Origin: a virus
Reading direction: 5' to 3' (one strand)
Length of the DNA: 49,145 nucleotides
Virus record (IMG/VR): IMGVR_UViG_3300042484_002676
Location: 1-49,145 of that record
Both the position numbers and the translations under genes were made by a program. Below the pieces are notes generated by a model, which saw only the letters and a list, made by a program, of their open reading frames with translations, was not told the origin of the DNA and ran no database searches. This document shows, piece after piece, positions 13,838 through 48,885 of the stretch; position 1 is the first letter of the stretch; every line of letters starts with the position of its first letter.

Positions 13838-13866
13838 TTCTTCAAAATATTAAGCAGGGACATAAG

Positions 13867-13874
13867 CATAAATA
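13867..13874 (+). promoter_or_regulatory. T4-type late promoter inside the LamG array
   Basis: CATAAATA is followed by an AAGGGG ribosome binding site at 13881-13886 and ATG at 13894. It splits the array into two transcription units, although read-through from upstream is likely. Confidence 0.55.
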
Positions 13875-13893
13875 CTAGTTAAGGGGAATAATT

Positions 13894-14160: not shown

Positions 14161-14167
14161 AACTAAA

Positions 14168-16882: not shown

Positions 16883-16884
16883 AC

Positions 16885-31669: not shown

Positions 31670-32224
31670 ATGAAAACAGTCGGTGATAAATTAGAAAAAT
31701 TTGCAGTTACAGGCGTTCGACCAGGCCAACCAGAAGATGCCTACTTCACAATCACGGATGAGAGCTGGCCAGGCAAGTGGAAAGTAATCGTTTACTATCC
31801 AAAAGACTTTACATTTGTATGCCCTACAGAAATTGTGGCATACGACAAACTAACAGATGACTTTTTTGATCGTGATGCCGTTCTATTGACCGGTTCAACA
31901 GACAACGAGTTCTGTAAGACAGCTTGGCAAACGGCTCACCCAGATTTGAAGAAGATCACACACACTCAATTTGCTGATACACAACGCTGGAATCAGGATA
32001 CTGGCAATCTAAGCCTTATTGAACAGCTTGGTGTGTTCTATGCTCCGGCAGGCGCGGCACTACGTGCAACATTTATCGTTGATCCAAACAATGAAATCCA
32101 GCACGTTACAGTCAACAACTTGAACGTTGGTCGTAACCCAGAAGAAACATTGCGTGTATTAGACGCATTGCAAACTGGTGAACTATGCCCATGCAATCGT
32201 GCTATCGGTGGTGAAACACTATGA
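31670..32224 (+). CDS. ahpC: Alkyl hydroperoxide reductase AhpC (peroxiredoxin)
   Basis: A 184-aa peroxiredoxin that reduces hydrogen peroxide and organic, including lipid, hydroperoxides in the cytoplasm. Peroxidatic Cys51 lies in FTFVCPTE. The C-terminus GELCPCNRAIGG has Cys173 and Cys175, the two-cysteine arrangement of the mycobacterial-type AhpC that is recycled by AhpD rather than AhpF. The adjoining ahpD gene (4-bp overlap) matches that pairing. It has its own promoter and a strong ribosome binding site. It is complete and looks bacterial in origin. Confidence 0.95.
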   Translation: MKTVGDKLEKFAVTGVRPGQPEDAYFTITDESWPGKWKVIVYYPKDFTFVCPTEIVAYDKLTDDFFDRDAVLLTGSTDNEFCKTAWQTAHPDLKKITHTQFADTQRWNQDTGNLSLIEQLGVFYAPAGAALRATFIVDPNNEIQHVTVNNLNVGRNPEETLRVLDALQTGELCPCNRAIGGETL

Positions 32225-32813: not shown

Positions 32814-33707
32814 TCAATATAGATGATTCTGATTCACATCACTTTTTAATAGAGTTTTTATTTTTTCTCCCCAAAAAATAGTAGAAGGAGTTATGCCTAG
32901 CTTCTTTATTAATTCTAGTTTATACTTGTTTTTTTTAAAAAGCTTACTAGTTAATCCTTCCCATCCTGAGTTACGAAGTCTTGGTACAAACTCTCCGACA
33001 CCCAACGAGCTATATAAATTGGACTTGAATCTACCGGGTTCTATTGTAGCATCATAATAATGATAGTGTCTAACTATCAAGTGCATGTTTAATTCTAGGC
33101 TATGATTTAGGAAACTACTAATACCGTTGATATTATTATCTAGCATGAATCTACTGTACGAACTATATTCAAGTCTATGAGGACTCAGTACTGGTTTATT
33201 GACCCAAGACCACGAATAATCACCCGCAAATACCGGAGTATCATTGCATTGTTCTAGCATCCAAAAATGAGTAGCAACATGTGGTTCTATAATTGAATAT
33301 GGTACTAGGTAATCTAAATATCGGTCGCTTTCAAAGAAGTCAAGTACATCCAACGTAATTATATTCTGTTTGATATTATTTTCACGACAATACAATTCAC
33401 TGTAGTATAAATCTTGCGTATTAACGATGCACCCGTCGACTAATAACTTCATTGTAATGACATTGTGAGGAATACCCAAAGCTATCACAGTTCTAAGTAA
33501 CAATTCACTATCTTGTCCACCACTTAGCAATATATCTACTTTACCCTTATTACTGAGTACATCATGTGCCATGTCAAGATATGATTTAGTACTGTCGGCT
33601 GGTACATCCTTCAGTGTAATATGATGCACTTTTTTACCAGTTACTGAGTCAATAATTAACTTGTTTTCTTTATAATCGTCAACCCCGTCAAACCAAATTA
33701 AATCCAT
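32814..33707 (-). CDS. Stand-alone PP-loop ATPase 1
   Basis: An ATP pyrophosphatase-fold enzyme of 297 aa. The PP-loop SGGQDSE is at residues 62-68 (VDILLSGGQDSELLLR). After it come LGIPHNVITMK and a long all-helical C-terminal part. Members of this superfamily (asparagine synthetase, QueC, TilS, argininosuccinate synthase) activate a carbonyl or carboxylate by adenylation for attack by a nucleophile. There is no glutaminase domain, so the nitrogen or sulfur donor is unknown. It aligns well with PP-loop 2 (SGG.DSE..LR, then LGI.HN.I..K, and an RATH/VATH motif near residue 150). It overlaps the end of the acetyltransferase-like gene by 10 bp. Confidence 0.8.
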   Translation of the reverse strand: MDLIWFDGVDDYKENKLIIDSVTGKKVHHITLKDVPADSTKSYLDMAHDVLSNKGKVDILLSGGQDSELLLRTVIALGIPHNVITMKLLVDGCIVNTQDLYYSELYCRENNIKQNIITLDVLDFFESDRYLDYLVPYSIIEPHVATHFWMLEQCNDTPVFAGDYSWSWVNKPVLSPHRLEYSSYSRFMLDNNINGISSFLNHSLELNMHLIVRHYHYYDATIEPGRFKSNLYSSLGVGEFVPRLRNSGWEGLTSKLFKKNKYKLELIKKLGITPSTIFWGEKIKTLLKSDVNQNHLY

Positions 33708-34300
33708 TTAATGGTCTCCCAATCAAAATCAAAGACTGGATCTAGCTTTTCATACATGATCCATTGCTTTGTATATTGAATATTAACAGGGAACTCCAGT
33801 TCATTTACTCCATTAAAAAATAAGTGGTGTGATTGTCTAGGAGTTCTTTTTTCGCCCAAACGAACTCGTTTCCATATTTTAGTAATATTTTTATTATAAT
33901 CGTTAAAGCAAATAGCAATAGCTTTAAATTTATTTTCAACCGCCCATGATTTTTCTCCGGGCAATAATACTTCTCTAGCAATAGAAAGATGCCTATAATT
34001 TTTTGCTACCCATGTTCTAGTTCCGGCAATTGCTAAATCCTTGCAGAACGCACTAGTATAAACCCCACTACACCCTACTATTTGATCTCCGTCAAATGCC
34101 ACATGATATTCTCCACCTGTAGTAAATCTATTGGTACGTTCTAATAAGTAAGGAAGTGTGTTAGTCTTATTTTTCCATTCATCGTTCCACATGTTGTAGT
34201 GGGCCGGCTGAGTTGTTTCTTTTCTAGCATCTTTCAAAAAATTAAAAAATATAGAATGCTGAATTTCTGTTAAATTTTTATATTCAATAAAGGTGTACAT
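33698..34300 (-). CDS. GNAT-like N-acetyltransferase
   Basis: A 200-aa protein with the strand-helix order of GNAT acyltransferases: VAFDGDQIVGCSGVY as the central strand pair, TRTWVAKNYRHLSIAREVLL as the pre-cofactor segment, and AIAICFNDYNKNITKIWKRV as the later strand and helix. The usual Gln/Arg-x-x-Gly-x-Gly/Ala loop is poorly kept, so acyl-CoA binding is not certain. It is the first gene of a two-gene minus-strand unit with PP-loop 1. No clear Shine-Dalgarno or late promoter is seen upstream. Confidence 0.55.
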   Translation of the reverse strand: MYTFIEYKNLTEIQHSIFFNFLKDARKETTQPAHYNMWNDEWKNKTNTLPYLLERTNRFTTGGEYHVAFDGDQIVGCSGVYTSAFCKDLAIAGTRTWVAKNYRHLSIAREVLLPGEKSWAVENKFKAIAICFNDYNKNITKIWKRVRLGEKRTPRQSHHLFFNGVNELEFPVNIQYTKQWIMYEKLDPVFDFDWETIKWI

Positions 34301-34365: not shown

Positions 34366-35133
34366 ATGAATTTTGGATCTACTTCAACAAATATTAATTT
34401 ATTAACTATAGCAACAGCCATAACATCCCTAGTAGGATTGTATAATGTTTCTATGTTCACATGGACTAATATTGTTATAATGTTAGCAAGTTTTTACGTT
34501 TTAAATATTTTGGGTGTATGGATGACCCTGCATCGATACTATTCACATAAATCATTTGAGTTTAAAAATACACACATTAAATGGTTTTTTACAATACTAT
34601 CAATAATTGCAGGGCGTGGTAGTCCATTAGGGTGGGTATATTTACATCGTAAACATCATGCTTATTCTGATACTGAGCAAGACCCGCATAGTCCTAAATA
34701 TTTAGGTTATAAACTGTTTGGATTCAATCATTACAAAAAACAGGAAGAAGAAAAAATGCAAGTGTTTATGATAAAAGACTTGATGACCAAAGAACATTTG
34801 TTTATTCACAAATGGTATATGTTAATTATAATATCTTTTATAGTACTATTTGCTGTACTCAGTTTTGAGTTGTTTTATTTTGCGTGGGTAGTCCCTGCAT
34901 TCCTAATACAGCTTAGCCAATATAATTTTAATTTCTTTGGCCATACGTATGGATACCGTAATTACGAAACTAAGGACGATAGTAAAAATAATAAATGGTT
35001 GTTTCCAATATTATTAGGTGAAGCTTGGCATAATAATCATCACAAGAATCCTGCCTTAGCAACTACAAAAATAAAACACTACGAATATGATCCATTACTA
35101 TCATTGATTAAATTGGTAGGAAACATAAAATGA
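34366..35133 (+). CDS. Membrane fatty-acid desaturase-like protein 1
   Basis: An integral membrane di-iron enzyme of the acyl-lipid/acyl-CoA desaturase family, which uses O2 and electrons to desaturate or hydroxylate acyl chains. All histidine boxes are intact: HRYYSH (56-61), HRKHH (94-98) with the following SDTEQDPHSP, and HNNHH (222-226), plus the NFNFFGH segment before the third box. Hydrophobic pairs lie at about 12-52 and 140-190. At 255 aa it is short; most family members exceed 280. A perfect late promoter is upstream. The stop overlaps the start of the 2OG oxygenase (ATGA). Substrate unknown. Confidence 0.9.
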   Translation: MNFGSTSTNINLLTIATAITSLVGLYNVSMFTWTNIVIMLASFYVLNILGVWMTLHRYYSHKSFEFKNTHIKWFFTILSIIAGRGSPLGWVYLHRKHHAYSDTEQDPHSPKYLGYKLFGFNHYKKQEEEKMQVFMIKDLMTKEHLFIHKWYMLIIISFIVLFAVLSFELFYFAWVVPAFLIQLSQYNFNFFGHTYGYRNYETKDDSKNNKWLFPILLGEAWHNNHHKNPALATTKIKHYEYDPLLSLIKLVGNIK

Positions 35134-35639
35134 CTCAACAATCTGACTTTTTTGTTAAACTAAACCTAACATCTAATGTAAGTAATGACATAATAGCAAA
35201 AATAAAAAACTCGTCTACTGAGCACTGGGGCCTCACATTAGACCAAGATATGATGCATCTGCACGTAGATGATTTTAAGAATGACCCGCACATAGTACAA
35301 ATCATAAATGATTTGGGCGGTGCCAACAGACTGTGTGTTTTTAGATTTCATCCAAACACATGTTACCAATGGCATGTTGATAAAATACGTAACGGGGCGA
35401 TAAACATGCTACTCACCGGATTTGATAGTTTTTGTGCTTTTGGATCAATGTCTCCCGATAGAAAATTTTCTAATTTAACTAAATTAGTGCATGATCCAGA
35501 TACATATTATTTAATGAATGTCAAGAAATTTCATACAGTATTTAATTTCTCGGAAACCAGGTATGTTGTGAGTATAAGTATACCTTCTACTACATATGAA
35601 GACACATGTACCTATCTTAAAGATAAGAATCTGATTTAA
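35130..35639 (+). CDS. 2-oxoglutarate/Fe(II) oxygenase-like protein
   Basis: A 169-aa double-stranded beta-helix protein resembling aspartyl/asparaginyl beta-hydroxylases. The iron site can be read as His82 and Asp84 (YQWHVDKIR) with His135 (KKFHTVFNF), and Arg144 (SETRYVVSIS) is placed to bind 2-oxoglutarate. Such enzymes hydroxylate or otherwise oxidise a substrate with O2 and 2-oxoglutarate. It is sandwiched between two desaturase genes, by a 4-bp overlap before and a 1-bp TAATG overlap after, with TAGGA upstream, so it is very likely part of the same pathway. Confidence 0.75.
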   Translation: MTQQSDFFVKLNLTSNVSNDIIAKIKNSSTEHWGLTLDQDMMHLHVDDFKNDPHIVQIINDLGGANRLCVFRFHPNTCYQWHVDKIRNGAINMLLTGFDSFCAFGSMSPDRKFSNLTKLVHDPDTYYLMNVKKFHTVFNFSETRYVVSISIPSTTYEDTCTYLKDKNLI

Positions 35640-36430
35640 TGTTGATAAATATTGACATGAAGAACATATTCACCAGTTCTACAATAGGAGCACAAATATT
35701 TCAAGTACTAGCTCTATTACTGATAGTAACGGGATTGTTCCAATATGGAATAACAATACAGACCGTGTTACTAGTAATGTTGGGTTATTTTTTGTATGGT
35801 TGTTTAGGCATTGTAGTTACATATCATAGAAATTTAACTCATAGTAGTTATGACACATATCCGTTATTGATTAAGATTTTTTCAGTATTTGGTTGCTTTG
35901 CAGGTACCGGTAGCCCATTAGCCTGGGTTGCAATACATATTAATCATCATTTAAGAAGTGATAAAATAGACGATCCTCATAGCCCTAGATACAAAGGACT
36001 CAAAATCTTTACATTAAATTATGTAAATGAAGTTAACAGTGATACTAAATGGCGCATGAGAAACATGGTAACTGATAAGTTCCAGCAGTTTCTACACCGT
36101 TATTACTTTGCTATAATCATGTTGTATAGTTTATGTCTATATCTAATCGGTGGTTTTTATTTACTAGTATTCCTTCACTTAGCTCCTGCATTAATCACCG
36201 GACTTATGAGTAACGTAGTTAACTATGTTGGACATAAGCCTACTTGGTTAGGCGGATATCGTTCGTATAATCTAAATGATGACAGCACTAACAATTGGTT
36301 ATGGGCTATTCCTAGTTGGGGAGAGTCTTGGCATAACAATCATCATAGATTCCCTAGAGATTACACATTCAAAAAGCAATGGTGGGAATTTGATATATCT
36401 GGATTAATTATCAAAGCTATAAAAAAATGA
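35639..36430 (+). CDS. Membrane fatty-acid desaturase-like protein 2
   Basis: Second desaturase (263 aa). The boxes HRNLTH (63-68), HINHH (100-104) with SDKIDDPHSP, and HNNHH (232-236) are complete, and the GESWHNNHH third box is kept. The second box has Ile-Asn where most members have Arg-x. The N-terminal and central hydrophobic pairs are strong. An alternative start at 35657 (MKNIFTSS) lies 5 nt after GATAAATA, so a shorter leaderless product is possible in late infection. The next desaturase overlaps by 4 bp. Confidence 0.9.
   Translation: MLINIDMKNIFTSSTIGAQIFQVLALLLIVTGLFQYGITIQTVLLVMLGYFLYGCLGIVVTYHRNLTHSSYDTYPLLIKIFSVFGCFAGTGSPLAWVAIHINHHLRSDKIDDPHSPRYKGLKIFTLNYVNEVNSDTKWRMRNMVTDKFQQFLHRYYFAIIMLYSLCLYLIGGFYLLVFLHLAPALITGLMSNVVNYVGHKPTWLGGYRSYNLNDDSTNNWLWAIPSWGESWHNNHHRFPRDYTFKKQWWEFDISGLIIKAIKK
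35644..35651 (+). promoter_or_regulatory. Possible internal late promoter in desaturase 2
   Basis: GATAAATA is followed by exactly 5 nt and an in-frame ATG at 35657. The spacing equals that at the two divergent starts near 41443 and 41485. Confidence 0.35.
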
Positions 36431-37182
36431 AAAGATATATGTACCCAAGAGGTTGGTTTTTTATAACAATGCAGATTATTGCTACTATAGTAACTCTATG
36501 GGCAATTTTTAATCCTGCAGGATTGGGCTATTGGATGTTATCATTGTTTGGTTATTTCTTAATAACTTGTTTAGGTATTTCTGTTATGTTTCACAGATTG
36601 CTAACTCATAAATCATATAAAGTATGGAAGCCCATAGAATACCTCTTTAGTTATTTTGGAAACATTGGTTGTACTGGTAGTTCTGTAGGTTGGGTATTTG
36701 TTCATAGGATGCATCATAGATTTGCTGATAAGCCTGGCGACCCCCACAGCCCTGTTACCATGGGAGCATTAGGAGCAATAGTCGGAGACTACAGTGGAAA
36801 ATTTAACAAATGGGAAGTCAGAGATATCATCAATGACCCGGTACACAGATTTATGCATGAATGCTACATGCTAATAGTGTTGACAACTGTGCTTGTCCTA
36901 TACATGATTGATCCATTGTTATCTGTTTATCTATTCTGGATTCCAATGTTCTTAAACACAGTAGCACCTAGATTAAGCAATTGGATCGATCATGATCCAA
37001 AGTTTGGCACAAAGGCTGATAATAGTAAAGACCAATCTCATAATGTATGGTGGTGGGCACTTCTAACATTCGGGGAAGGATGGCATAACAATCATCATTT
37101 GCGACCCGGTGACTATAGTATAGGAAAGAAGTGGTGGCAAATTGATATCGGTGGTCTGGTTGTTAAATTAATTAGACTATAA
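36427..37182 (+). CDS. Membrane fatty-acid desaturase-like protein 3
   Basis: Third desaturase (251 aa). The boxes are HRLLTH (56-61), HRMHH (93-97) with ADKPGDPHSP, and HNNHH (220-224) in GEGWHNNHH. A WIDHDPKFGTKADNSKD segment replaces the usual NxxGH before the third box; the His is retained. It ends KKWWQIDIGGLVVKLIRL, the WWEID-type tail shared with desaturases 2, 4 and 8. It is coupled by ATGA to desaturase 2, and a PP-loop gene follows after 29 nt. Confidence 0.9.
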   Translation: MKRYMYPRGWFFITMQIIATIVTLWAIFNPAGLGYWMLSLFGYFLITCLGISVMFHRLLTHKSYKVWKPIEYLFSYFGNIGCTGSSVGWVFVHRMHHRFADKPGDPHSPVTMGALGAIVGDYSGKFNKWEVRDIINDPVHRFMHECYMLIVLTTVLVLYMIDPLLSVYLFWIPMFLNTVAPRLSNWIDHDPKFGTKADNSKDQSHNVWWWALLTFGEGWHNNHHLRPGDYSIGKKWWQIDIGGLVVKLIRL

Positions 37183-37211: not shown

Positions 37212-38129
37212 ATGAAATTACCCTTTTATGACAATTGGCAAAAATGGACTGTCAATGATGTTTTATATAGCCACAGAAAAAATAAATCAGACCATTGGAA
37301 TTTCTCAATGCGTAGATGCACTGATCCGATCGGCACACTAAAAGAAGAACTTTTTAACAATGCTAGCAAGATAAGAGACTATTACACCGGACCATTTGAT
37401 GTGTTATATTCAGGTGGTATAGATAGCGAAGTAGTACTTAGGGTGTTTAAAGAATTAGGTATAAAGCACAATACTATAATTGTTAAGTACAAAAATGGAT
37501 ATAACCATAGAGAAATCACTAATGCAATCGAAACTGTAAAATCACTGAATATACCTTATAAGTTAATTGATTTTGATTTAGAAAAGTTCTATGAAACAGA
37601 AGCATATGATTTAAGTATAGAAAGTTCATGTATACGTGTAGGAAGAGCAACACACATAAAATTTTGTAAAGATTTTTGCGACAACATTCCTGTTATGGGT
37701 GAGGGTGATGTATATTGGCGCCGAGATTTAGGAACAGATTATAGTAAACCCTCAGCCTGGAGATTTATTATAGCAGAAGACTCTCACAATTGCGGGATGT
37801 TTATGACAAAGCTGGGTCGAGAAAACGTATGTGATTTCTTTGAGTTTACACCCAATGTCATTAAAGCATACAACAATTACCCACTGGTACAACAATTGTT
37901 AAATGACAAAATTTTAGGTAAGACTAGTAATTGGTCTAGCAAATGGTTGATATATAGAGATATATGGCCTGATCTAGTACAGCGTGTAAAATTAACAGGG
38001 CTTGAAGGTGACAAAGAACCGGGTTATATGCCTATGTTTGTAAAAGAACTACAGGATGTGATAGAAGCTAAAATTGGCTCCGGGGTCACGTATTGGTGCA
38101 CCCCGGAAGAACTAGACAAATTCGTTTAA
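37212..38129 (+). CDS. Stand-alone PP-loop ATPase 2
   Basis: A 305-aa paralogue of PP-loop 1. The PP-loop SGGIDSE is at 67-73 (FDVLYSGGIDSEVVLR), followed by LGIKHNTIIVK and a conserved RATHIKFCKDFCDNIPVMGE segment that matches VATHFWMLEQCNDTPVFAG in the other copy. The C-terminal part contains YWRRD, SAWRF and TYWCTPEEL. No glutaminase, RNA-binding or zinc-finger domain is seen, which argues against QueC or TilS proper. It is the last gene of the desaturase 1-3 unit. Its TAA shares bases with the stop of the convergent Rieske gene (TTTAAA). Confidence 0.8.
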   Translation: MKLPFYDNWQKWTVNDVLYSHRKNKSDHWNFSMRRCTDPIGTLKEELFNNASKIRDYYTGPFDVLYSGGIDSEVVLRVFKELGIKHNTIIVKYKNGYNHREITNAIETVKSLNIPYKLIDFDLEKFYETEAYDLSIESSCIRVGRATHIKFCKDFCDNIPVMGEGDVYWRRDLGTDYSKPSAWRFIIAEDSHNCGMFMTKLGRENVCDFFEFTPNVIKAYNNYPLVQQLLNDKILGKTSNWSSKWLIYRDIWPDLVQRVKLTGLEGDKEPGYMPMFVKELQDVIEAKIGSGVTYWCTPEELDKFV

Positions 38130-38995
38130 ATCTTATTTTCTATATACCAATCAGCCCAGTGCTTTGATTGATCTTCCCACTTGTTAACAGTGCGCCTTAA
38201 GGGGAAATAAGGTCTTTTGATTTTTTCAATAGCAGCTATATCTTCACGATAAACGTCAACACACTTTTCCCAGTCCTCTTTTTCTACTTTACCTAAGTCA
38301 GGTGAATAGTAGAATTGCATATGCCAATTAAATCCATATTCTAGATTTGCATCATTTGGAGTAACTCTAGTAATTACAAGTTTTCCAGGCTCATACTCGA
38401 TGTTAAAGCCCGGGTAAACGAATAGCCAAAATCCCTTAGACCCGTAAGACGTAGGATACATTTGTATAGACCACCCGTCTCCAAATTCATTTTCAATCTT
38501 TTCTAAAGGTGTTTCTAAACTTTGTCTAGGATGAACTCCGTTTTGACGAATATGCAACAAATCAGTCATTTGTTCCATAAGCCACAACCAACTTCCGTTG
38601 CTTGTACCTGTTAGACTATGACTGTAAGCCATTAATGGGGCTTCTCTTAAAATTTTAGACCATTCTGCATCTTCTGGTTCTGTAAAATTCTCATATAGAA
38701 TACCTGTCTTGCTTAATGTAGCTTGACCGTGATGATGCATCTTGTAAAAATGACTGCAATATGGTTCTTTTTCTAATGGTTTACCTTCTAAGTCCCATGC
38801 AAACCCGTGCAGCTTACATACAACATTATTTACCATATCACCCGGTTCGTGCATTATGTATCCGCGGTGAGGACACTCCCTGCTCTTGATATCATATTGG
38901 TTATTGTTCTTTATTATGATCTTGTCTTGTAGCACAAAGTTACCATTATTCAATGCTGATGCATGGGCAAAAATGTTAGGTGGGTTCTTGAACAT
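38126..38995 (-). CDS. Rieske non-haem iron oxygenase
   Basis: A 289-aa oxygenase alpha-subunit-like protein, short for the family (usually 340-450). The Rieske [2Fe-2S] motif is complete: Cys41, His43 (CPHRG), then Cys60 and His63 (CKLHG), 16 residues between pairs. The catalytic domain has Asp145, His148 and His155 (EQMTDLLHIRQNGVH), and an ED..AIE segment near the end offers the Asp ligand. The gap between the two iron His residues is six, against four in most members. The start at 38995 is preferred because GAGAG lies 10-15 nt upstream; the longer frame reads into the preceding gene. Reductase and ferredoxin genes are absent from the window. Confidence 0.88.
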   Translation of the reverse strand: MFKNPPNIFAHASALNNGNFVLQDKIIIKNNNQYDIKSRECPHRGYIMHEPGDMVNNVVCKLHGFAWDLEGKPLEKEPYCSHFYKMHHHGQATLSKTGILYENFTEPEDAEWSKILREAPLMAYSHSLTGTSNGSWLWLMEQMTDLLHIRQNGVHPRQSLETPLEKIENEFGDGWSIQMYPTSYGSKGFWLFVYPGFNIEYEPGKLVITRVTPNDANLEYGFNWHMQFYYSPDLGKVEKEDWEKCVDVYREDIAAIEKIKRPYFPLRRTVNKWEDQSKHWADWYIENKI

Positions 38996-39029
38996 ATGAC
39001 TATTTCTCTCAGTGTGAAAATATAAGTAA

Positions 39030-40208
39030 TTAAACAGTTGGAATTCTATTAAAATTATCAACATCACCAATGTAGAAAGCCGATGTATATGTTATTAATC
39101 CAGTGCCATCTTTATTTAAGTATTTTTTATCTATTGAATTATAAAAGTGTCTGGTGTCGGATGCAATCATTTCAAATGTTCTAGTAGACTTGTGTAAATC
39201 ATAAAACCATTGGTCATGTTCGCCGAGGAATATTTTAGTAGGTTTCTCCGCTTGGAATATTGGTGTTGCCGTCGAGGGATATATAGTGGGGACTATTGCC
39301 CTTTCATACTTGCTATGTCGCATTCTTTTTTGAGCATCAGACATATTCTCTGTAATTGAAAGGTCATTTACATAACGACCAATGCTAGCGTCACTAAAAA
39401 CTTTTTTTGTCACAACATGTGCTTGTTTAATAAGCATTTGAGTATGATATTTTGACCAATAAAATGCAATATTATAAACGTTAGGATATTCACGATCAAA
39501 TACAGGCCTTGCAACGTTGATAGCTAAGTCACTGAATGCGATGTAAATCTTTTTATTTTTTGTAATGACAACCATTGGTTTGTCAATTCCGTAAATAAAA
39601 CCTATCTTTTTTTCACTGTCAGCCAACTTAACAAGATGTTTTTGTCTTTCTAATCTATATCGGGCTATCCCTGAAGGATGCACCCAGTCTTCTGATCTGT
39701 ATAACCAATCGTCTGATTTAAAATCTAGGATGTCTTGAAAATAATCATGCACTGTTATCTTAACATCAGGGTAGTCTATTGCAATTTGTTTAATAAATGG
39801 GATCTGTGTATATAGTGTTTCACTAATAGTATTTTTGTTAGAAGTATCGCTATTGTTGAAGTCAAAGTTACTGAGCCCACTAAGTGGAACGCTAGCAACT
39901 ATCTCATCTATTTTGATGCCATTTCTTAGAAAGGTCAGCACTACATTTGAACTGTCAGCACCACCGCTACAAAAAACAATGATATAATCAAACTCCTCAC
40001 GAAGTTGTTTAGCCCGTTGAACATAAAAATAATCTAATGATTCCGCTGGCTCTTCGGTCCAATTGAAGGTTTTAAATGAATCATTATTAAAATACCAAGA
40101 CACCTCGGATTTTGTCTTGTTAGCTTCTATTATTGCATCAATCTTATGAATAAACCGCTGGCCTCCTACAATATAAAAATTGTCGTTATCGATATTTTTT
40201 TGCATCAT
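39030..40208 (-). CDS. Stand-alone PP-loop ATPase 3
   Basis: The longest PP-loop protein of the locus (392 aa). SGGADSS is at 81-87 (YIIVFCSGGADSSNVVL). The N-terminal 75 residues resemble neither PP-loop 1 nor 2. Later it has KKIGFIYGIDKPMVVI, placed like the second ATP-binding strand of asparagine synthetase-type domains, and FYWSKYHTQMLIKQAHVV. Adenylating ligase chemistry is inferred from the fold. Its ATG directly abuts the stop of the cupin gene, so the two are made together. The stop at 39030 is 34 nt before the Rieske start. Confidence 0.78.
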   Translation of the reverse strand: MMQKNIDNDNFYIVGGQRFIHKIDAIIEANKTKSEVSWYFNNDSFKTFNWTEEPAESLDYFYVQRAKQLREEFDYIIVFCSGGADSSNVVLTFLRNGIKIDEIVASVPLSGLSNFDFNNSDTSNKNTISETLYTQIPFIKQIAIDYPDVKITVHDYFQDILDFKSDDWLYRSEDWVHPSGIARYRLERQKHLVKLADSEKKIGFIYGIDKPMVVITKNKKIYIAFSDLAINVARPVFDREYPNVYNIAFYWSKYHTQMLIKQAHVVTKKVFSDASIGRYVNDLSITENMSDAQKRMRHSKYERAIVPTIYPSTATPIFQAEKPTKIFLGEHDQWFYDLHKSTRTFEMIASDTRHFYNSIDKKYLNKDGTGLITYTSAFYIGDVDNFNRIPTV

Positions 40209-40826
40209 TTAAATGTAAGTCCTAGACTTCATTGGATTGAATTCATCTCTTGGACCATCCTCACTATCCGGGTGAAATACGGCTAAGGACATCATTTGAT
40301 TCTCTGTGCGGAATCTGTGAATAACGTGACGCTCTAGTAGAAATATAGTGCCAGGTGTCAAATCAATGTCATGGTCATTTAATGATGCTATGCCCTTACC
40401 TTTTAAAATAATTCCTATGCGTATAGAGGGATGGCTATGAAAAGTTTGGTTAATTCCTGCAGGGAAATACAAGTAGTTCAAACACGGATCTCCATTACGA
40501 GACGGATCAATTAGGTTTGTATTACTACAACCATCTATGTAACTCAAGTGACCTGGTTCGCTTGAGTTAATTATTGCAAACCTTTCTTCTGGTATTAAAA
40601 TGCCGGGTGTTTCAATAACAATTCCTTTGCCTACAATAGTGAAGGAGGAATTGACACTGGCGGCAACAACACCAGTTACCGAGAATTTATCCCCGATTAA
40701 TGTACCGTCTTCCATCAATATAAACCTAGTATGATCTGCTTTAGATATTTCAATCGAATCAGTAACCGGAATAATATTAACAACATGTTTTGATTTGACT
40801 AAAGTTGGTGAGTTAATTAATTTCAT
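40209..40826 (-). CDS. Cupin-domain protein
   Basis: A 205-aa protein with an N-terminal beta-strand domain (to about residue 95) and a C-terminal single cupin: FHSHPSIRIGIILKGKG (130-146) and LTPGTIFLLERHVIHRF (156-172). His130, His132 and His167 or His170 could bind a metal. The usual Glu after HxH is not evident (Arg136/Ile137 occupy the place), so it may be a non-classical metal site or a binding protein. Its stop abuts PP-loop 3 and its start overlaps the upstream gene by one base. Confidence 0.7.
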   Translation of the reverse strand: MKLINSPTLVKSKHVVNIIPVTDSIEISKADHTRFILMEDGTLIGDKFSVTGVVAASVNSSFTIVGKGIVIETPGILIPEERFAIINSSEPGHLSYIDGCSNTNLIDPSRNGDPCLNYLYFPAGINQTFHSHPSIRIGIILKGKGIASLNDHDIDLTPGTIFLLERHVIHRFRTENQMMSLAVFHPDSEDGPRDEFNPMKSRTYI

Positions 40827-41484: not shown

Positions 41485-42945
41485 ATGAATGTCATACTTT
41501 TAACCTGTGTTTCAGGTACATTATACCAACGAGCATTAGGTGCATACCAATTGGCATTTTTCCTCAGGGAACACGGGTACACCGTTCAAGTAATAGATTT
41601 TACAGATGAATTAAGTGAAAATGAACTGATTGAGGCACTCGATAATCACATAACATCTGACACCTTATGTATAGGTATAAGCACAACATTCTATAATGAT
41701 TTTAATGTTGAAATATTTTCTTCAACCAGAGACTACAAAGCACATATACCTAAAAACATAAAATCTGCAATTGAATATTCCAAACAGAAATATTCAAATA
41801 TAAAAGTGGTACTAGGTGGAGCAAAGTCATTGACAGGCGAGCACTTAGACTTTGTTGATTGTGTTATCCATGGGTATGGTGAAGATAAGATGTTAAATTT
41901 TTTGAACGGATTAGATAATAATCCCAAACGAATAAAAAATAAAATAATTACCTTAGGTCAATCAACATCAAAACAATTAATCATATATAATGACCCGTTA
42001 GATTGTAAATTTGACATACAGAAAAATAGCCATCGTTTCATTGAACAGGATTATATATTGCCCAATGAAACATTACCTATTGAAATTTCTCGAGGGTGTA
42101 TTTTTAAATGCAAATTTTGTGCATACCCATTAACAGGTAAGAAAAAATTTGATTATATAAGAGACCCAAAACTCATTTATGATGAAATGATGTATAACTA
42201 TGAAAATTTTAACACAACTAATTATTTTTTCGGAGACGATACACTAAACGATAGCACATTTAAAATAGAAAGCCTACATAAATCTATAACATCTTTGCCA
42301 TTTAAAATAAAATTTACATCATATTTAAGATTGGATTTGTTACACCATAACCCGGAACAAATTTCTATGTTAAAGGAAATGGGACTAGCAAGCCCGTTTT
42401 TTGGTATTGAAAGTTTAAATCAACGATCTGCTTCTAGCGTAGGTAAGGGAATGGATGTTAATAAAGTAAAAGAATTTTTACTTGAGTTGTATAATGATCA
42501 TTGGAACAAAGAGATTCCAATATACTTATCATTAATTATAGGTCTCCCATACGAAACAGAAAAATCTATGAGAGAGACATTTCAATGGGTAAAAGAGACA
42601 GAACTTAGTGCTAGTTTTCAACCACTGTCTATATTATCACAATCTATTTACAAATCAGAATTTGAGAAGAACATACAGAAATACGGATATACAGTAAAAG
42701 AAAATGGTTACTGGGAAAACGAGAACATGAATGTTAATCAAGCCGAGGTCTTATCTAAAGAATTCAATGAGACTTTATTGTTTAAATCTAGACCGGCTAG
42801 CTGGTTTTTAATGACGTTATTAAATCATAATATGACGTTAGATCAATGTAGTAGCATGACAGTTAGTGATTTAAATTGGACTAAGATAATTCTTGCCAAA
42901 AAGAAAAAAATAGCAAAATATAAATCACTATTACTCAGAACCTAA
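41485..42945 (+). CDS. Radical SAM enzyme with a B12-binding-like N-terminal domain
   Basis: A 486-aa protein. Residues 1-140 look like a cobalamin-binding-type Rossmann domain (MNVILLTCVSGTLYQRALGA; LREHGYTVQVIDF; VVLGGAKSL; CVIHGYGED) but lack the DxHxxG cobalamin His, as many relatives do. The radical SAM core starts at ISRGCIFKCKFC with Cys205, Cys209 and Cys212 for the [4Fe-4S] cluster; FFGDDTLND and GIESLNQRS are the usual SAM-domain segments. Such enzymes perform difficult methylations, ring closures or C-C bond chemistry. The frame starts within a divergent promoter repeat. Its end overlaps the end of desaturase 4 by 11 bp. Confidence 0.9.
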   Translation: MNVILLTCVSGTLYQRALGAYQLAFFLREHGYTVQVIDFTDELSENELIEALDNHITSDTLCIGISTTFYNDFNVEIFSSTRDYKAHIPKNIKSAIEYSKQKYSNIKVVLGGAKSLTGEHLDFVDCVIHGYGEDKMLNFLNGLDNNPKRIKNKIITLGQSTSKQLIIYNDPLDCKFDIQKNSHRFIEQDYILPNETLPIEISRGCIFKCKFCAYPLTGKKKFDYIRDPKLIYDEMMYNYENFNTTNYFFGDDTLNDSTFKIESLHKSITSLPFKIKFTSYLRLDLLHHNPEQISMLKEMGLASPFFGIESLNQRSASSVGKGMDVNKVKEFLLELYNDHWNKEIPIYLSLIIGLPYETEKSMRETFQWVKETELSASFQPLSILSQSIYKSEFEKNIQKYGYTVKENGYWENENMNVNQAEVLSKEFNETLLFKSRPASWFLMTLLNHNMTLDQCSSMTVSDLNWTKIILAKKKKIAKYKSLLLRT

Positions 42946-43705
42946 AAATAATACTGAATGATTTTCCTATCAACGCCTCTATATCTATTTCCCACCACCG
43001 TTCATGTAAATTCAATTTCTTAGCATCTCGATGATGATTGTTGTGCCAGCCGAAACCCATTGTTAAGAATCCTAGTACTAGATTATTGTGGCTATCATCT
43101 AGTAGGTCGTGGTTTCTATAGTTACCAGGAATGTATTTCAAGTGGAGTATAGAATTGATTAACCCGAATTTTATAAGTTCTAGTACGTAACTTGCCGACC
43201 AAAGCAAAAATAATTCTGGGCTTATAACATACATGAGAACATAAAATAATACATTAATTTCAATAAAGCGTTTTGATGGGTTACTTATATCAGGATCACG
43301 CAATGTTTTTATGGTTAATATCTTAGAACTGCGGTCATCAAACACACTGTTAATTATTGCAGGTCTGAACATCCAGAAAATTATACTATTCCACAATCCA
43401 TTTTTTGGGCTATGTACATCATTTTTTTGGTCACTATTACGGTGATGGTGTAAATGTTGTACTATCCAATAGAAAGGTGTACTATATCCTGAGATAATAG
43501 TATAGTATGAAAATAGTTTTCGTGAATAAGGACCAACTGTAAATTGATTATGAGCGAAATATCGATGACCTACAACACCATTACCAATAGTTCTAAATAA
43601 CCAGACTGGTATCAGTAACCACCAATAGCTTATATAATAAAAAGATACAAGACCTAATATCGTTAATATAATGCTGAAAAAAACGTATGAACGAGTATTT
43701 GTCAT
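42935..43705 (-). CDS. Membrane fatty-acid desaturase-like protein 4
   Basis: Last gene of a five-desaturase operon (256 aa). The boxes are HRYFAH (47-52), HLHHH (84-88) with SDQKNDVHSP, and HNNHH (221-225) in GFGWHNNHH. The second box has Leu-His in place of Arg-x, and Val where most members have Pro in DPHSP. It ends RWWEIDIEALIG plus a short hydrophobic tail. The pre-third-box ILHLKYIPGNYRNHDLLDDS keeps the His. It overlaps desaturase 5 by 4 bp. An additional di-iron oxidation step is inferred. Confidence 0.9.
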   Translation of the reverse strand: MTNTRSYVFFSIILTILGLVSFYYISYWWLLIPVWLFRTIGNGVVGHRYFAHNQFTVGPYSRKLFSYYTIISGYSTPFYWIVQHLHHHRNSDQKNDVHSPKNGLWNSIIFWMFRPAIINSVFDDRSSKILTIKTLRDPDISNPSKRFIEINVLFYVLMYVISPELFLLWSASYVLELIKFGLINSILHLKYIPGNYRNHDLLDDSHNNLVLGFLTMGFGWHNNHHRDAKKLNLHERWWEIDIEALIGKSFSIIFRF

Positions 43706-44445
43706 TTTGAAAGAAGTTTAATAAAAAAGTAGCTACCGTCGAATTCACCTCTCGCTACTGCCAGATTGTTTAGTCTAATATTATCATGGTGATTTTTGTG
43801 CAAGGTGCTCCCACCAGATATCCAACTTAAAATTTTATTATTTCGGCTAGTGAACTCTGACCCGTTTTTGTGGTGCAAAAATGCATTTACTAACATTTCG
43901 CTATGAAATGTTAAGGCACATCCTAACAATGTGCCGGTGAACACGTTGAAATCTAAGATTAGTAATATCAATAGTCCAATCAAAACAATGTGCTTGGAGT
44001 ATTTATTAATGGTCAATAAAGTTGTATCTCTTAATAAATCTTTAACTGTAATTAAATTAAACTCTCGTAAATTGAATAACCATAATATATAGGCATGTAG
44101 TAACCCATCAGAAGGTGTATGGGGGTCATTTATCGTATCGCTATTTGAGTGATGTTGTCTATGTATTTGAGCCCAAGTAACAGGTCCGCCCATTAATCCA
44201 AAACAGCTTAATATTGCAATAAAATATTTTATCACATTGTTTTTTGGTGTCCAGTTTTTGTGAGCGAATAACTTATGAGTTCCCGCCTGTATACCTAACC
44301 AATATATAAGAACATAACTAATAGCCATGGATAATAGAGTAACAATCCAATTCGACACATAAAATAAAGAAATTATCATAGCGAATTGTAGTGGTAGGTT
44401 AAACCAAAAATAGTATTGTCGGCTTTCTGTCTTTAAAGAACTCAT
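43702..44445 (-). CDS. Membrane fatty-acid desaturase-like protein 5
   Basis: The most divergent desaturase (247 aa from the chosen start). The boxes are still complete: HKLFAH (57-62), HRQHH (95-99) with SDTINDPHTP, and HKNHH (216-220). The third box sits in STLHKNHHDN instead of GEGWHNNHH, and the last 25 residues lack the WWEID tail, so substrate or reaction may differ. The start at 44445 is preferred to an upstream in-frame codon because it forms the same ATGA overlap with desaturase 6 as every other junction in this operon. Confidence 0.88.
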   Translation of the reverse strand: MSSLKTESRQYYFWFNLPLQFAMIISLFYVSNWIVTLLSMAISYVLIYWLGIQAGTHKLFAHKNWTPKNNVIKYFIAILSCFGLMGGPVTWAQIHRQHHSNSDTINDPHTPSDGLLHAYILWLFNLREFNLITVKDLLRDTTLLTINKYSKHIVLIGLLILLILDFNVFTGTLLGCALTFHSEMLVNAFLHHKNGSEFTSRNNKILSWISGGSTLHKNHHDNIRLNNLAVARGEFDGSYFFIKLLSK

Positions 44446-45209
44446 TTTAAAAATCTTTCTACTAAAAAAGCACATAAATCCCATTCGAATGGTTTTTTAG
44501 TAAATGCAAAGTCATACTCTCCCGGTTTAGCATGATGGTTATTATGCAAACCTTCTCCCAATGTCAGCCAATTCCACATATGACTATTAACCGTAGAATC
44601 TGTGGTTTCAAAATTTCTATAACCCTGACTAGGCAAATGCAGAGGTAAACTTAATACGGCTGAAGACCACCAACTAAAACCAGCAGGCAACATATAGCAA
44701 AATAACACCAGTTTAGGATCGATCAATGCTAACAACAGGATGTATAAAAAGATTACTGCAAAATAATATTTGTGTAACCACATTAATGTTGGGTTTCGTA
44801 GCAAGTCTTTTATACTTCCTACAGAAGTCTTCTCAGAAGGATCTTCTTTATACCAATGCCAAAAACTTCTCCAATACCCTATCTCATGGGGACTGTGTAA
44901 ATCCTTGCCGTTATCACTATTAGCATGGTGATATCTATGTACAGTTACATATTGTAGAGTACTACCAGTAGTGCTTAATGTAGCAAGTAAGGCAATAAAC
45001 TTTTCCTTCCATTCAGACATCTTGAAACTCTTATGTGTAAAGTAACGGTGTTGACCGATACTAGCGCCGAATTTACTAACAAACAGAATTCCAAATAGTG
45101 CTGCTAGGTAATACCCTAGGCTATTTACATATATTAGATATATAACTATTGGAATTATAGCCCATGTATTTAATTGTTGTATAATTCTAAGCAAGATAGT
45201 ATTGTTCAT
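44442..45209 (-). CDS. Membrane fatty-acid desaturase-like protein 6
   Basis: Desaturase of 255 aa with HRYFTH (54-59), HRYHH (91-95) followed by SDNGKDLHSP, and HNNHH (222-226) in GEGLHNNHH. Leu replaces Pro in the DPHSP motif. Three to four membrane-spanning stretches are visible (residues about 17-50, 70-90, 145-185). The GYRNFETTDSTVNS loop before the third box resembles that of desaturase 1. ATGA overlaps on both sides. Confidence 0.9.
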   Translation of the reverse strand: MNNTILLRIIQQLNTWAIIPIVIYLIYVNSLGYYLAALFGILFVSKFGASIGQHRYFTHKSFKMSEWKEKFIALLATLSTTGSTLQYVTVHRYHHANSDNGKDLHSPHEIGYWRSFWHWYKEDPSEKTSVGSIKDLLRNPTLMWLHKYYFAVIFLYILLLALIDPKLVLFCYMLPAGFSWWSSAVLSLPLHLPSQGYRNFETTDSTVNSHMWNWLTLGEGLHNNHHAKPGEYDFAFTKKPFEWDLCAFLVERFLK

Positions 45210-45967
45210 AACTTCTTAATCATAAAAATTTTTTCGATCAATATGCCAGGAAAATCAAATTGTCCCTTAGCCATAACATATGAATATGCACCGGGGTTGT
45301 GGTGATGATTGTTATGATATCCCTCATTCCATGTTAACCATTTTAAAAATGTGTTGTTACTACTATTATCCTTAGTATTGAAGGGTCGTGTCCCAAACTC
45401 TGGCCTATGTCCTAATACATTGACTAATCCAGCTGCAATGAAATTATAAATCACATTAAAACTTAAAAAATACCCAGTGAGTTCAACCCCTAATGTAACT
45501 AACAATAATATCAGTAACGCTATATTTAAAAGAAAATAATTTCTGTGTATCCACTTGTGTACCGGGTCTTTTATTAAATCTGACACTAACTTAGCTTCAA
45601 TGCTGTAATTTTTATTTCGCACGTAGAATACAACTTTCCACCATGGTGTAGTAATGTGTGGGTCTCGTTCAGTATCACTGAATGCGTGATGTTGTCTATG
45701 AATTCCTGAATACGTTATGCTTGATCCATATAATAAAGGGGTGCTAAAAAAATGTAAAATCATTTCTTTAAATTTTGTCGTCTTGTAGCTCTTATGACAC
45801 CACAGTCTATGCAATGCAACTTCATTACCAATTGCATTAAAAAATTTCGCAACGGCCCAACCGAATAGAAGAAAGTACCAATCAAAATGAGCCACTAGTG
45901 TATACGATACTATAATAGCATGTACTGCTATCATAAACATTAATTTTGCGTGAAACGATACCTTCAT
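45206..45967 (-). CDS. Membrane fatty-acid desaturase-like protein 7
   Basis: Desaturase of 253 aa, the copy most like classical bacterial delta-9 enzymes by eye: EVALHRLWCHKSYK (box 53-58), HRQHH (90-94) with SDTERDPHIT, NVLGHRPEFGTR, and NEGYHNNHHHNPGAY (box 218-222). The NExxHNxHH context is the usual family form. It lacks the WWEID tail. It is overlapped by desaturases 8 and 6 by 4 bp each. Substrate unknown. Confidence 0.91.
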   Translation of the reverse strand: MKVSFHAKLMFMIAVHAIIVSYTLVAHFDWYFLLFGWAVAKFFNAIGNEVALHRLWCHKSYKTTKFKEMILHFFSTPLLYGSSITYSGIHRQHHAFSDTERDPHITTPWWKVVFYVRNKNYSIEAKLVSDLIKDPVHKWIHRNYFLLNIALLILLLVTLGVELTGYFLSFNVIYNFIAAGLVNVLGHRPEFGTRPFNTKDNSSNNTFLKWLTWNEGYHNNHHHNPGAYSYVMAKGQFDFPGILIEKIFMIKKL

Positions 45968-46716
45968 TTTTTAATCATCCTAATGAACAAACCCGGCGGG
46001 TCAATTTCCCACCATTTTTCTCCCTGTTTCCAAGACCCGGGATGGGCATGGTGATTATTGTGCCAACCTTCACCTAGACTTAGAATATTAGCAATCCAAC
46101 TATTTTTCGAAGTATCTTTTGTTTGATGTGTTTCGTATCCATGGATGTGTCCAATGACCGTAACAGATGCGACACCGTTTAAACAGCCGGTTGCGGGAAT
46201 CGCATATGCGAAAATTATTAAAAGTGGATCGATAATGGCTAAAATAATTACATATAAGAAAATTACCTTGAAGTAGTGCTTATGTAAAAAAACGATGACG
46301 GGATCTTTAATAACATCAGCAATGTACTTTCTTGAAATATCGACTCTTTTCCAGTTATACGTGTATGCTTTAAACCACCCTATATGTCTTGGACTGTGAG
46401 GATCCATCTCAGTGTCGGCATGTTGGTGGTGATATCGATGTACCGCTACCCAACTAATAATAGATCCTAATGTTGCTAAAGTGCCAACTACTGCTAAAAT
46501 TATCTCCATTGGTCTGTTAGTTTTATAGGAACGGTGGCTAAAATATCTATGGAATCCGGCATTTGCGCCTACTATTCCAAATAGAAGAAAACTAAAAATA
46601 GCTATACTAGCATAATACATCCCAGGATGTAATACCAAGTAGACAATGCCAACACAACTTAGAGTCGCATTTAACAGTTGCAATAGTTTTATTTGATGAT
46701 TAAAGTTTCGTCGCAT
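45964..46716 (-). CDS. Membrane fatty-acid desaturase-like protein 8
   Basis: First gene of the five-gene operon (250 aa from the chosen start). The boxes are HRYFSH (56-61), HRYHH (93-97) with ADTEMDPHSP, and HNNHH (219-223) in GEGWHNNHHAHPGSW, ending KWWEIDPPGLFIRMIKK. The start ATG at 46716 is taken because it is the first ATG and lies just after AATAAATA; a TTG at 46749 would add 11 residues but has no ribosome binding site. The next gene overlaps by 4 bp. Confidence 0.89.
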   Translation of the reverse strand: MRRNFNHQIKLLQLLNATLSCVGIVYLVLHPGMYYASIAIFSFLLFGIVGANAGFHRYFSHRSYKTNRPMEIILAVVGTLATLGSIISWVAVHRYHHQHADTEMDPHSPRHIGWFKAYTYNWKRVDISRKYIADVIKDPVIVFLHKHYFKVIFLYVIILAIIDPLLIIFAYAIPATGCLNGVASVTVIGHIHGYETHQTKDTSKNSWIANILSLGEGWHNNHHAHPGSWKQGEKWWEIDPPGLFIRMIKK

Positions 46717-47382: not shown

Positions 47383-48414
47383 ATGTCATTATTACTATTT
47401 TTTCCGCAAATAAGCAGCTTATTTAAACCACATCATTGGACAGGATCTATGAACATTCATAATCCTCCTCTATATTCTACTATTAGTAGGTGCGAGTACA
47501 AACCTGATATTTTTGATTATAAATTAGTAGTGCCCTCTATATCAGAAGTTGCCGAGTATGATAAACATACTCATAGTTTTTCTGACCTCATGGACCTTCG
47601 TAGTTTGGATTTACTCAGTAAACAAGAGCGATGTTTTATACTTTATAGCGGTGGGGTTGATAGTACTGGTTTAATGGTTAGTATTATGAAAAACTGGTCT
47701 AAAGAGGATCAGAAAAGAGTAACTATCGTATGCACCCCTCATAGTTACTATGAGTTCCCAGACTTCTTTAAAGTGTTGAATAAAAATTTCACAATAGAAT
47801 TGTGTAAAAATAGTTATAAAACCTACACTAATCGCGGTATTTTAGTTACAGGAATACAAGCAGACCTTTTGTTCCCCCATAGTTGGTGGCAAGATAAAGC
47901 ATGGAATCTAGGGGAAGATGTTGTGTTTGGTAACTATAAGGACAAGATGCCCTTATTATTTGAATATATGTTTCCAAATTTTGGAAAAAAAGTGTTTGAA
48001 TACTACCATGAGATAGTAGTTAACCCTGTATACGAAATTAATAATGTTGCTGATTTTTGCTACTGGTTTTGGTTTTCTCAATATTACCAAAAAGTAGCAT
48101 TATTATTATGGCAGGCCCAAGGCGCGATAGATGATAAACCGATGTTTGACAGGATTTTTAATTTTTACGATTGGCCTATGTTTGAAACTTGGAGTATTGC
48201 TAACGCAAAAGCTATTGTGACCTCTGAATTGCCACTAGTTAAGAAGTCCTTAAAGGATTATATAGTTCAATACACTCATTTACCTGACTATTATTATAAA
48301 CCTAAAGTTCCTAGCAACGGAAACACTCATAGCGGCAACCGATATAATATCGGTTTAGACGAAGATTGGAATTTGATTTCTATGCAGGAATCTCTAAAGT
48401 ATTTGAAAAATTAA
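47383..48414 (+). CDS. Stand-alone PP-loop ATPase 4, asparagine synthetase-like
   Basis: A 343-aa protein. SGGVDST is at 89-95 (CFILYSGGVDSTGLMV). It is the copy most like the C-terminal domain of asparagine synthetase B: the segment GILVTGIQADLLFPHSWW matches the place of the GxGxDExFxGY loop, though the acidic pair is reduced to Asp, and MFDRIFNFYDWPMFETWSIAN matches the late helical region. No N-terminal glutaminase (no Cys2 nucleophile) is present, so it would need free ammonia or another nucleophile, as in beta-lactam synthetase-like enzymes. It ends by sharing TTAA with the convergent next gene. Confidence 0.78.
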   Translation: MSLLLFFPQISSLFKPHHWTGSMNIHNPPLYSTISRCEYKPDIFDYKLVVPSISEVAEYDKHTHSFSDLMDLRSLDLLSKQERCFILYSGGVDSTGLMVSIMKNWSKEDQKRVTIVCTPHSYYEFPDFFKVLNKNFTIELCKNSYKTYTNRGILVTGIQADLLFPHSWWQDKAWNLGEDVVFGNYKDKMPLLFEYMFPNFGKKVFEYYHEIVVNPVYEINNVADFCYWFWFSQYYQKVALLLWQAQGAIDDKPMFDRIFNFYDWPMFETWSIANAKAIVTSELPLVKKSLKDYIVQYTHLPDYYYKPKVPSNGNTHSGNRYNIGLDEDWNLISMQESLKYLKN

Positions 48415-48767
48415 TTCCTTTCAAAAAAATCACCGGACTCTATAACAATGTTGTCTGGACTTAATATTTTCCAAAATAAATGCGTTCTGATGATACCGTT
48501 TTCAGCGCAATATAAAGATGCCTTTATGTTAGTGGTCTCTAAGTCCGGTGATGAATAAATTTCAGAAGTGGTGTACTCATTAACTATATTAAATTCACTA
48601 GTTCTTGTTAGGGTCAATTGATCTAATGATTCTTCATAAGTGGTACTTATAAATATACCGTTATCACTCCAAATTTGCAAAGTTGCTAGATCGTCTTGGT
48701 CAAGTTGGTACCATTGTATATTTATATTTGGTCTTACTAATACTCGTATTAATTGTAGTCTGTTCAT
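48411..48767 (-). CDS. Unknown small protein (118 aa)
   Basis: Not recognised. It is a beta-rich protein (IRVLVRPNINIQWYQL; GIFISTTYEESLDQLTLTRT; IIRTHLFWKIL) with no membrane segment. The start at 48767 is chosen over one at 48863 because GGAG lies 8 nt upstream and a late promoter lies just before that; the longer frame would run through both and into a plus-strand promoter. Convergent with PP-loop 4, stops overlapping. Confidence 0.65.
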   Translation of the reverse strand: MNRLQLIRVLVRPNINIQWYQLDQDDLATLQIWSDNGIFISTTYEESLDQLTLTRTSEFNIVNEYTTSEIYSSPDLETTNIKASLYCAENGIIRTHLFWKILSPDNIVIESGDFFERN

Positions 48768-48787
48768 TTTATGCTCCGTTAATCTAT

Positions 48788-48795
48788 TATTTATC
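48788..48795 (-). promoter_or_regulatory. Late promoter of the 118-codon gene
   Basis: GATAAATA on the minus strand, 20 nt before the ATG at 48767, with GGAG in between. It supports the shorter start of that gene. Confidence 0.5.
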
Positions 48796-48856
48796 ATATT
48801 TGTAATTGTTGTGTCTGTATTAATTTTGATTTTGGGCAGATAGTTGAAAAAAAGTG

Positions 48857-48885
48857 TTGACAACTATTCCTATCTCTGTTATACT
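48857..48885 (+). promoter_or_regulatory. Sigma70-type promoter, copy A
   Basis: A perfect TTGACA (48857-48862), 17-bp spacer, TATACT (48880-48885). A strong host-polymerase promoter of the kind used for early phage genes, pointing right. Confidence 0.85.

Follow-up and report, generated by a model that had tools for sequence, protein, structure and literature searches.

Five divergent desaturase genes in a phage array that is linked, in related phages, to genes for acyl-chain synthesis

Why would a phage carry five fatty acid desaturase genes in a row? The desaturase genes of phages are usually taken to be lone auxiliary genes that serve the fluidity of host membranes, and the lipid desaturases of cyanophages, which Roitman et al. 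are said to have described in 2018 (cited in PMC11480375), are reportedly known in this form. They too are phage-borne membrane desaturases, and they differ from the present case in that we did not find an array with acyl carrier protein and ketosynthase genes reported for them. The stretch studied here, viral record IMGVR_UViG_3300042484_002676 (positions 1 to 49,145, hereafter the window, meaning the whole 49,145 bases), carries on its minus strand an array of five desaturases, D4 to D8. The finding is larger than was noted in an initial annotation made from the sequence alone: in related phages, the array belongs to a conserved cluster for acyl biosynthesis, whose function we infer from its genes.

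The five desaturases of the array

The array spans positions 46716 to 42935 and consists of five intact, consecutive open reading frames (ORFs) of the PF00487 family, given here in the order of transcription (D4>D5>D6>D7>D8) with the state of the ten metal ligands discussed below.

D4, 45964..46716, minus strand: FA_desaturase, 250 amino acids, gene 1 of the array; PF00487 60.3 bits; all nine His, with Thr in place of the Asn ligand
D5, 45206..45967, minus strand: FA_desaturase, 253 amino acids; PF00487 58.9 bits; all ten ligands kept
D6, 44442..45209, minus strand: FA_desaturase, 255 amino acids; PF00487 58 bits; all nine His, with Ser in place of the Asn ligand
D7, 43702..44445, minus strand: FA_desaturase, 247 amino acids, the most divergent copy; PF00487 40.1 bits; all ten ligands kept
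D8, 42935..43705, minus strand: FA_desaturase, 256 amino acids, final gene of the array; PF00487 50 bits; all ten ligands kept

Other starts are possible at a TTG at 46749 for D4 and at 44484 for D7. The arrangement agrees with the initial annotation, which had described five desaturases in succession joined by ATGA at every junction: the overlap occurs at 4/4 junctions (D4-D5, D5-D6, D6-D7 and D7-D8) and the five score 40-60 bits against PF00487. Three further copies, D1-D3, lie on the plus strand (34366-37182), giving eight desaturases in the window, none of them broken. All eight exceed the curated PF00487 cut-off of 29.7 bits (40-69 bits), and NCBIfam models likewise group them with fatty-acid desaturases. 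Identity within the array is low, the other copies being 22-38% identical to D4. A search for the T4 late promoter motif TATAAATA gave 8 matches against 9.2 expected and so carries no information.

The HxxxxH, HxxHH and HxxHH boxes, previously noted in all five array copies, are indeed present, and with a ninth His outside the boxes the full set of nine is found in 8/8 window copies. The accompanying claim that every copy is catalytically intact holds for the histidines and fails for the tenth ligand in two copies. Alignment to SCD1 places an Asn four residues before the ninth His, at the position of SCD1 N265, which we take to be a metal ligand in the SCD1 structures. This position is Thr in D4, Ser in D6 and Asn in the remaining six window copies, as well as in 83/83 sampled bacterial desaturases. 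In the D4 relatives of every other phage the residue is Thr, Ile or, in one case, Asp; in the D6 orthologues it is Ser. The replacement in D4 and D6 is a fixed change under purifying selection and not decay, and our guess is that at least two steps would differ from plain desaturation. The likeness to SCD1 is otherwise considerable, extending from the sequence match (1.6e-29) and the nine His ligands to the predicted fold; the comparison of folds was made with the D4 model only (AlphaFold, pLDDT 82), which Foldseek aligned with structures 6wf2, 4ymk and 4zyo at E ~1e-7 and a TM of 0.69-0.75 by query. Apart from the missing Asn in D4 and D6, the phage enzymes differ in being about 100 residues shorter.

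Orthologues of D4, 70-76% identical, occur in three viral contigs, G016, G024 and G017, in which a desaturase profile counts 11, 9 and 7 desaturases, respectively. The eight-desaturase alignment was too divergent to serve as a scan query, and the alignment of D4 orthologues was used instead; single-protein scans of viral contigs with D6, with D7 and with the protein at 47383-48414 returned no relatives. Gene order in the three contigs is D4, [KAS], D5', D5, D6, D7, D6', D8, the bracketed gene being a beta-ketoacyl synthase (KAS). D5-D6-D7 retain their 4-bp overlaps there, and D4, D5 and D6' are separated by inserted genes.

In a 59-sequence maximum-likelihood tree (node values are SH-aLRT/UFBoot), the clades D4, D5+D5', D6, D7 and D8 each reach at least 99.8/100 and contain no bacterial members (D5 100/100, D6 100/100, D7 99.9/100, D8 99.8/100; a wide D8 clade 100/99). 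A constraint uniting the five window copies was rejected (delta lnL 918; approximately unbiased (AU) test, p 1.3e-5). Since each copy falls in its own cross-phage clade and duplication within the genome is rejected, the copies separated earlier than these phages. D4-D8 are thus, on the evidence of the tree, best described as ancient paralogues, for which 'redundant copies' is a misnomer. The initial annotation had raised the question of duplication inside phages; a recent event within this genome is rejected by the same test, and a wholly phage origin receives weak support, the node that unites all phage desaturases standing at 77.5/48 here and at an SH-like value of 0.82 in another tree. We do not claim monophyly of all phage desaturases. 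The bacterial comparison sample was picked by D4-derived patterns and is pattern-limited and D4-biased, and the apparent absence of a close bacterial relative of the array desaturases is provisional.

Ratios of nonsynonymous to synonymous substitution (dN/dS) were obtained pairwise by the Nei-Gojobori method, for which G016 and G024 form the sole pair with unsaturated dS. For this pair dN/dS is 0.104 for D4, 0.099 for D5, 0.103 for D6, 0.096 for D7 and 0.101 for D8, far from the value near 1 named beforehand as refuting the proposal. For the window's own copies, pN lies far below pS in every comparison and dS is saturated. Together with the separate clades and the rejected duplication, the values of about 0.1 in this one pair of relatives support what the initial annotation had proposed, namely that selection acts on each of the five copies separately, for different activities.

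Acyl-chain genes in related phages

In G016, G024 and G017, genes for extending and carrying acyl chains are mixed in with the genes of this array. The KAS lies between D4 and D5' (PF00109 74 bits, PF02801 42 bits), an acyl carrier protein (ACP) with the DSL motif directly follows D8 (PF00550 44 bits), and AcpS, the holo-ACP synthase (PF01648), stands next to an ATP-grasp protein, upstream of D4. G017 and G024 also hold one or two proteins of 299-320 amino acids between desaturases, and a model of these proteins shows a weak likeness to diiron oxidases of the ferritin-like type, for example aldehyde-deformylating oxygenase (E 0.02); a haem-oxygenase-like identity was dropped because the model is nearer to that group. 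The window protein at 48411-48863, considered as a counterpart of the gene beside AcpS on account of a shared RPN[VI][ND] motif, was set aside when phmmer gave no match at 1e-3.

A compact cluster is common to the more distant phages G006, G007, G011 and G013 (364 kb). It comprises a D4-like>D8-like pair joined by ATGA, KAS>ACP>FabZ, a PP-loop ATPase and AcpS, along with further desaturases, a second ACP and, in most, a Rieske protein. FabZ of the distant phages scores up to 100 bits against PF07977, and KAS, ACP and FabZ occur together in these four and in G014. The Cys-His-His triad of KAS is kept in 7/7 aligned copies. By family search, KAS is present in 9/16 and ACP in 11/16 desaturase-related records, tallies that overstate the independent cases by one or two, the G002/G003 and G013/G014 loci being near-identical. 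In all seven mapped records with both (G006, G007, G011, G012, G016, G017 and G024), the ACP immediately adjoins a desaturase. Because the 16 records had themselves been recruited by their desaturases, KAS or FabZ alone, with no use of desaturases, served for a further recruitment, and 3/3 new contigs (L165, L166 and L168) carry the same cluster, desaturases included. KAS-like sequence is very rare among phages at large, occurring in 27 of 50,697 phage records, the matches listed being mostly unannotated fragments or records resembling host DNA.

Some neighbouring observations may be placed on record here. Desaturase matches in Acinetobacter phage MD-2021a (L162) were discarded, as the stretch reads as host chromosome (trp, baeSR, btuB, aidB). 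Pelagibacter phage Mosig EXVC030M (L163) has a single desaturase within a dense block of other genes at 49771-70268 (hydroxylase, aminotransferase, nitroreductase, MoaA-like, carbamoyltransferase), which may be a further biosynthetic cluster of phages. In G016 (L039), the desaturase cluster has at its end, at 547-1117, a rubrerythrin-like gene followed by a rubredoxin match.

A proposed phage acyl-modifying pathway and its rivals

That relatives have KAS, ACP and AcpS among the genes of this array suggests that the phages bring a pathway for an unusual, highly unsaturated lipid and not mere extra copies. We put at about even the chance that D4-D8 supply the desaturases of an acyl-modifying pathway that the phage encodes and that yields a highly unsaturated lipid or metabolite. 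Directly behind this reading stand the distinct, intact enzymes, their conserved orthology and array order, purifying selection in relatives and the linkage to KAS, ACP and AcpS in relatives; the radical SAM gene beside D8 in the window, nearest to the lipid-biosynthesis model TIGR04072, also counts in its favour. Five old and distinct SCD-like membrane diiron enzymes would be translated from one mRNA and would act on different positions, or on successive intermediates, of one acyl chain. That chain would probably sit on, or be released from, a phage ACP and be extended by a phage ketosynthase, and the outcome would be a polyene or acetylenic, highly unsaturated lipid or metabolite. Sequential desaturation, suggested at the outset, is thus plausible given the acyl-chain genes of the relatives, its product being our conjecture by analogy. 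Electrons would be supplied by the host, because no Fer2 ferredoxin was found in the 16 records.

A bolder proposal, which we hold tentatively and at somewhat less than even chances, is that a family of T4-like and larger phages carries the complete conserved cluster and uses it during infection to make a highly unsaturated metabolite of its own from fatty acids, with the diiron site of D4 and D6 remodelled for something other than plain desaturation. The complete cluster is here understood as a ketosynthase, two ACPs, AcpS, FabZ, 3-11 specialised desaturases and diiron, Rieske, 2-oxoglutarate (2OG)-like and B12-radical SAM enzymes. If this is true, some phages would operate an acyl pathway dedicated to a molecule of their own making, by means of 5-11 old, non-exchangeable desaturases with KAS, ACP and AcpS, and desaturases whose metal sites are altered would become available as a further source of such chemistry.

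Several observations weigh against the pathway. Six-frame and family hidden Markov model searches found no KAS, ACP, AcpS or FabZ in the window, and window D4 and D5 overlap where the relatives hold KAS. Either these genes lie in an unassembled part of the genome, as the pathway would presuppose for KAS and ACP, or host equivalents replace them, and here the explanation is at its weakest. The window does carry phage ribonucleotide reductase, tail and endolysin/lysis genes alongside its eight desaturases. It has no end repeats, and its large ribonucleotide reductase subunit is nearest to that of Xanthomonas phage X1 (60%), then to those of Stenotrophomonas phages such as Moby (54%); as the genomes of these phages measure 160-200 kb, the window is probably only a fraction of its own. 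Moreover, an AMP-binding ligase (PF00501) and a Fer2 ferredoxin are each found in 0/16 records, the window among them, so that loading and electron supply would need the host. D1-D3 and many of the relatives sit among abundant, unrelated-looking oxygenases, and saturation of dS bars a dN/dS for the window's own copies.

The main rival is membrane fluidity: the desaturases would all modify the acyl chains of host phospholipids, each with its own position or head group, so that the host membrane becomes more fluid during infection, and the KAS and ACP of the relatives would boost the same lipid synthesis. The enzymes are SCD-like, and this explanation has already been given for other phage desaturases (PMC7678222) and for phages of cryopeg brine, each of which bears five fatty acid desaturase genes (Zhong et al. 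2020, PMC7300359). Those phages resemble ours in being lytic-type, with several SCD-like desaturases that keep three His boxes and are reported to be under purifying selection, and two viral desaturase (vFAD) clades lack bacterial members; KAS, ACP, AcpS and an ordered five-gene array are not known from them, a distinction drawn from the published description. We consider fluidity unlikely, though far from negligible. One or two desaturases would suffice for it, whereas these phages have eight to eleven that diverged long ago; two copies lack a metal ligand that never varies among the bacterial relatives, and the KAS, dedicated ACP, AcpS, FabZ, ferritin-like, Rieske and radical SAM proteins exceed that need. 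Rather improbable, in our estimate, is a set of mixed oxidases with a non-lipid or mixed substrate, in which D4 and D6, having lost the Asn ligand (to Thr or Ile in the D4 clade and to Ser in D6), may hydroxylate and not desaturate; the FA_desaturase superfamily also includes hydroxylases and the like, and the surrounding region abounds in 2OG-like, Rieske and PP-loop enzymes. Yet PF00487 and NCBIfam place all copies among fatty-acid desaturases, the predicted fold of D4 is SCD1-like, and the linkage to ACP and KAS indicates acyl chains.

A hetero-oligomeric membrane complex, in which translational coupling would fix the ratio of five proteins, had also been proposed, and ATGA at 4/4 array junctions and the conserved overlaps of D5-D6-D7 would fit it. 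The 4-bp overlap is also found, however, in 12/36 remaining same-strand neighbour pairs of the window, including most of a tail-fibre-like array, and all five desaturase-desaturase pairs share it. It is a style of this genome, mildly enriched in the array and no special signal of stoichiometry; being so common, it says little about a fixed-ratio complex. With the relatives' arrays interrupted between D4, D5 and D6', the proposal finds no specific support and we regard such a complex as very unlikely. Still less credit, indeed hardly any, goes to redundant copies, whether kept for gene dosage with no functional difference or decaying. One fold family does embrace them all, but the data on selection and orthology already contradict redundancy: the orthologous clades are old, 0 of eight copies are broken, and dN/dS between G016 and G024 is 0.02-0.12 per desaturase.

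The pathway that we prefer has partial counterparts among known systems. The polyyne and jamABC alkyne clusters (PMC8406139), whose product requires a desaturase triad, likewise unite several FA_desaturases with a dedicated ACP. At least three desaturases are expected there and the window has eight, whereas a dedicated ACP is absent from the window and present in 11/16 records. FAAL (AMP-binding) is found in 0/16 phage records and rubredoxin in 3/16 only, with none in the window, and the phages add KAS, AcpS and sometimes FabZ. Lacking the AMP-binding ligase, the phage cluster is therefore not a polyyne cluster by definition, though the logic is similar. Ladderane and polyunsaturated-hydrocarbon clusters of type II fatty acid synthesis (PMC2649909) also combine FabF-like KAS, ACP, FabZ and a B12-type radical SAM protein with desaturating enzymes, but these are phytoene-desaturase-like amine oxidases in anaerobes, in contrast to the SCD-like, oxygen-dependent desaturases described here. 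The radical SAM protein of the window (41485-42945) has TIGR04072, a lipid-biosynthesis B12 radical SAM family, as its nearest NCBIfam model, at 100.9 bits and far under the cut-off of 360, and the window holds no type II module of KAS, ACP and FabZ. With eight desaturases among phage genes, it does qualify as a multi-desaturase set of phage auxiliary metabolic genes. Prophages carrying acpP, fabF and fabG have been described (PMC8224337); in the open-licence literature we found no report of a phage cluster uniting a desaturase array with KAS, ACP, AcpS and FabZ.

Neighbouring genes in the window

Desaturases, a Rieske oxygenase, a PP-loop ATPase, a GNAT-like gene and a radical SAM protein are common to the window and to the cluster of its relatives. 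The genes that surround the array are as follows.

33698..34300, minus strand: GNAT-like acetyltransferase; PF00583 21.4 bits; G016 homologue 3.6e-66, kept beside D1 there
34366..35133, plus strand: D1, FA_desaturase outside the array; PF00487 69.1 bits; G016 orthologue 50% identical
35130..35639, plus strand: small protein encoded between D1 and D2, likened by eye to 2OG dioxygenases (HxD...H); without a Pfam match; homologue at G017 322-807, 6.8e-20
35639..36430, plus strand: D2, FA_desaturase outside the array; PF00487 66.1 bits; G016 orthologue 68% identical
36427..37182, plus strand: D3, FA_desaturase outside the array; PF00487 52.9 bits; ATGA overlap with D2
37212..38129, plus strand: PP-loop ATPase (SGGxDS, QueC-like); PF06508 24.5 bits; family in 12/14 desaturase-bearing records
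38126..39070, minus strand: Rieske-type oxygenase; PF00355 28.3 bits; G016 homologue 2.4e-68
39030..40208, minus strand: second SGGxDS-motif protein, motif by eye; no Pfam match; G008 homologue 3.4e-31
40209..40826, minus strand: cupin-domain protein; PF02311 40 bits, PF07883 33 bits
41485..42945, plus strand: B12-binding radical SAM protein; PF04055 54.3 bits; convergent with D8, stop codons overlapping

Within 16 kb lie four proteins that are related to PP-loop ATPases or look like them (32814-33707, 37212-38129, 39030-40208 and 47383-48414); two belong to one family by BLAST and three have SGGxDS. A second array of paralogues, at 10479-20259, consists of twelve ORFs of about 214-240 amino acids and one of 441, which are about 28-44% mutually identical and mostly joined by ATGA; it has virion/tail-fibre PHROG matches and follows a giant ORF of 3451 amino acids (110-10465). 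This phage, rich in iron enzymes, also encodes a NifU-like Fe-S scaffold at 30914-31294 (PF01592 179 bits), whose homologue in G017 and G001 shows about 79% identity, and glutaredoxin and AhpC/TSA peroxiredoxin genes lie at 24847-25077 and 31670-32224.

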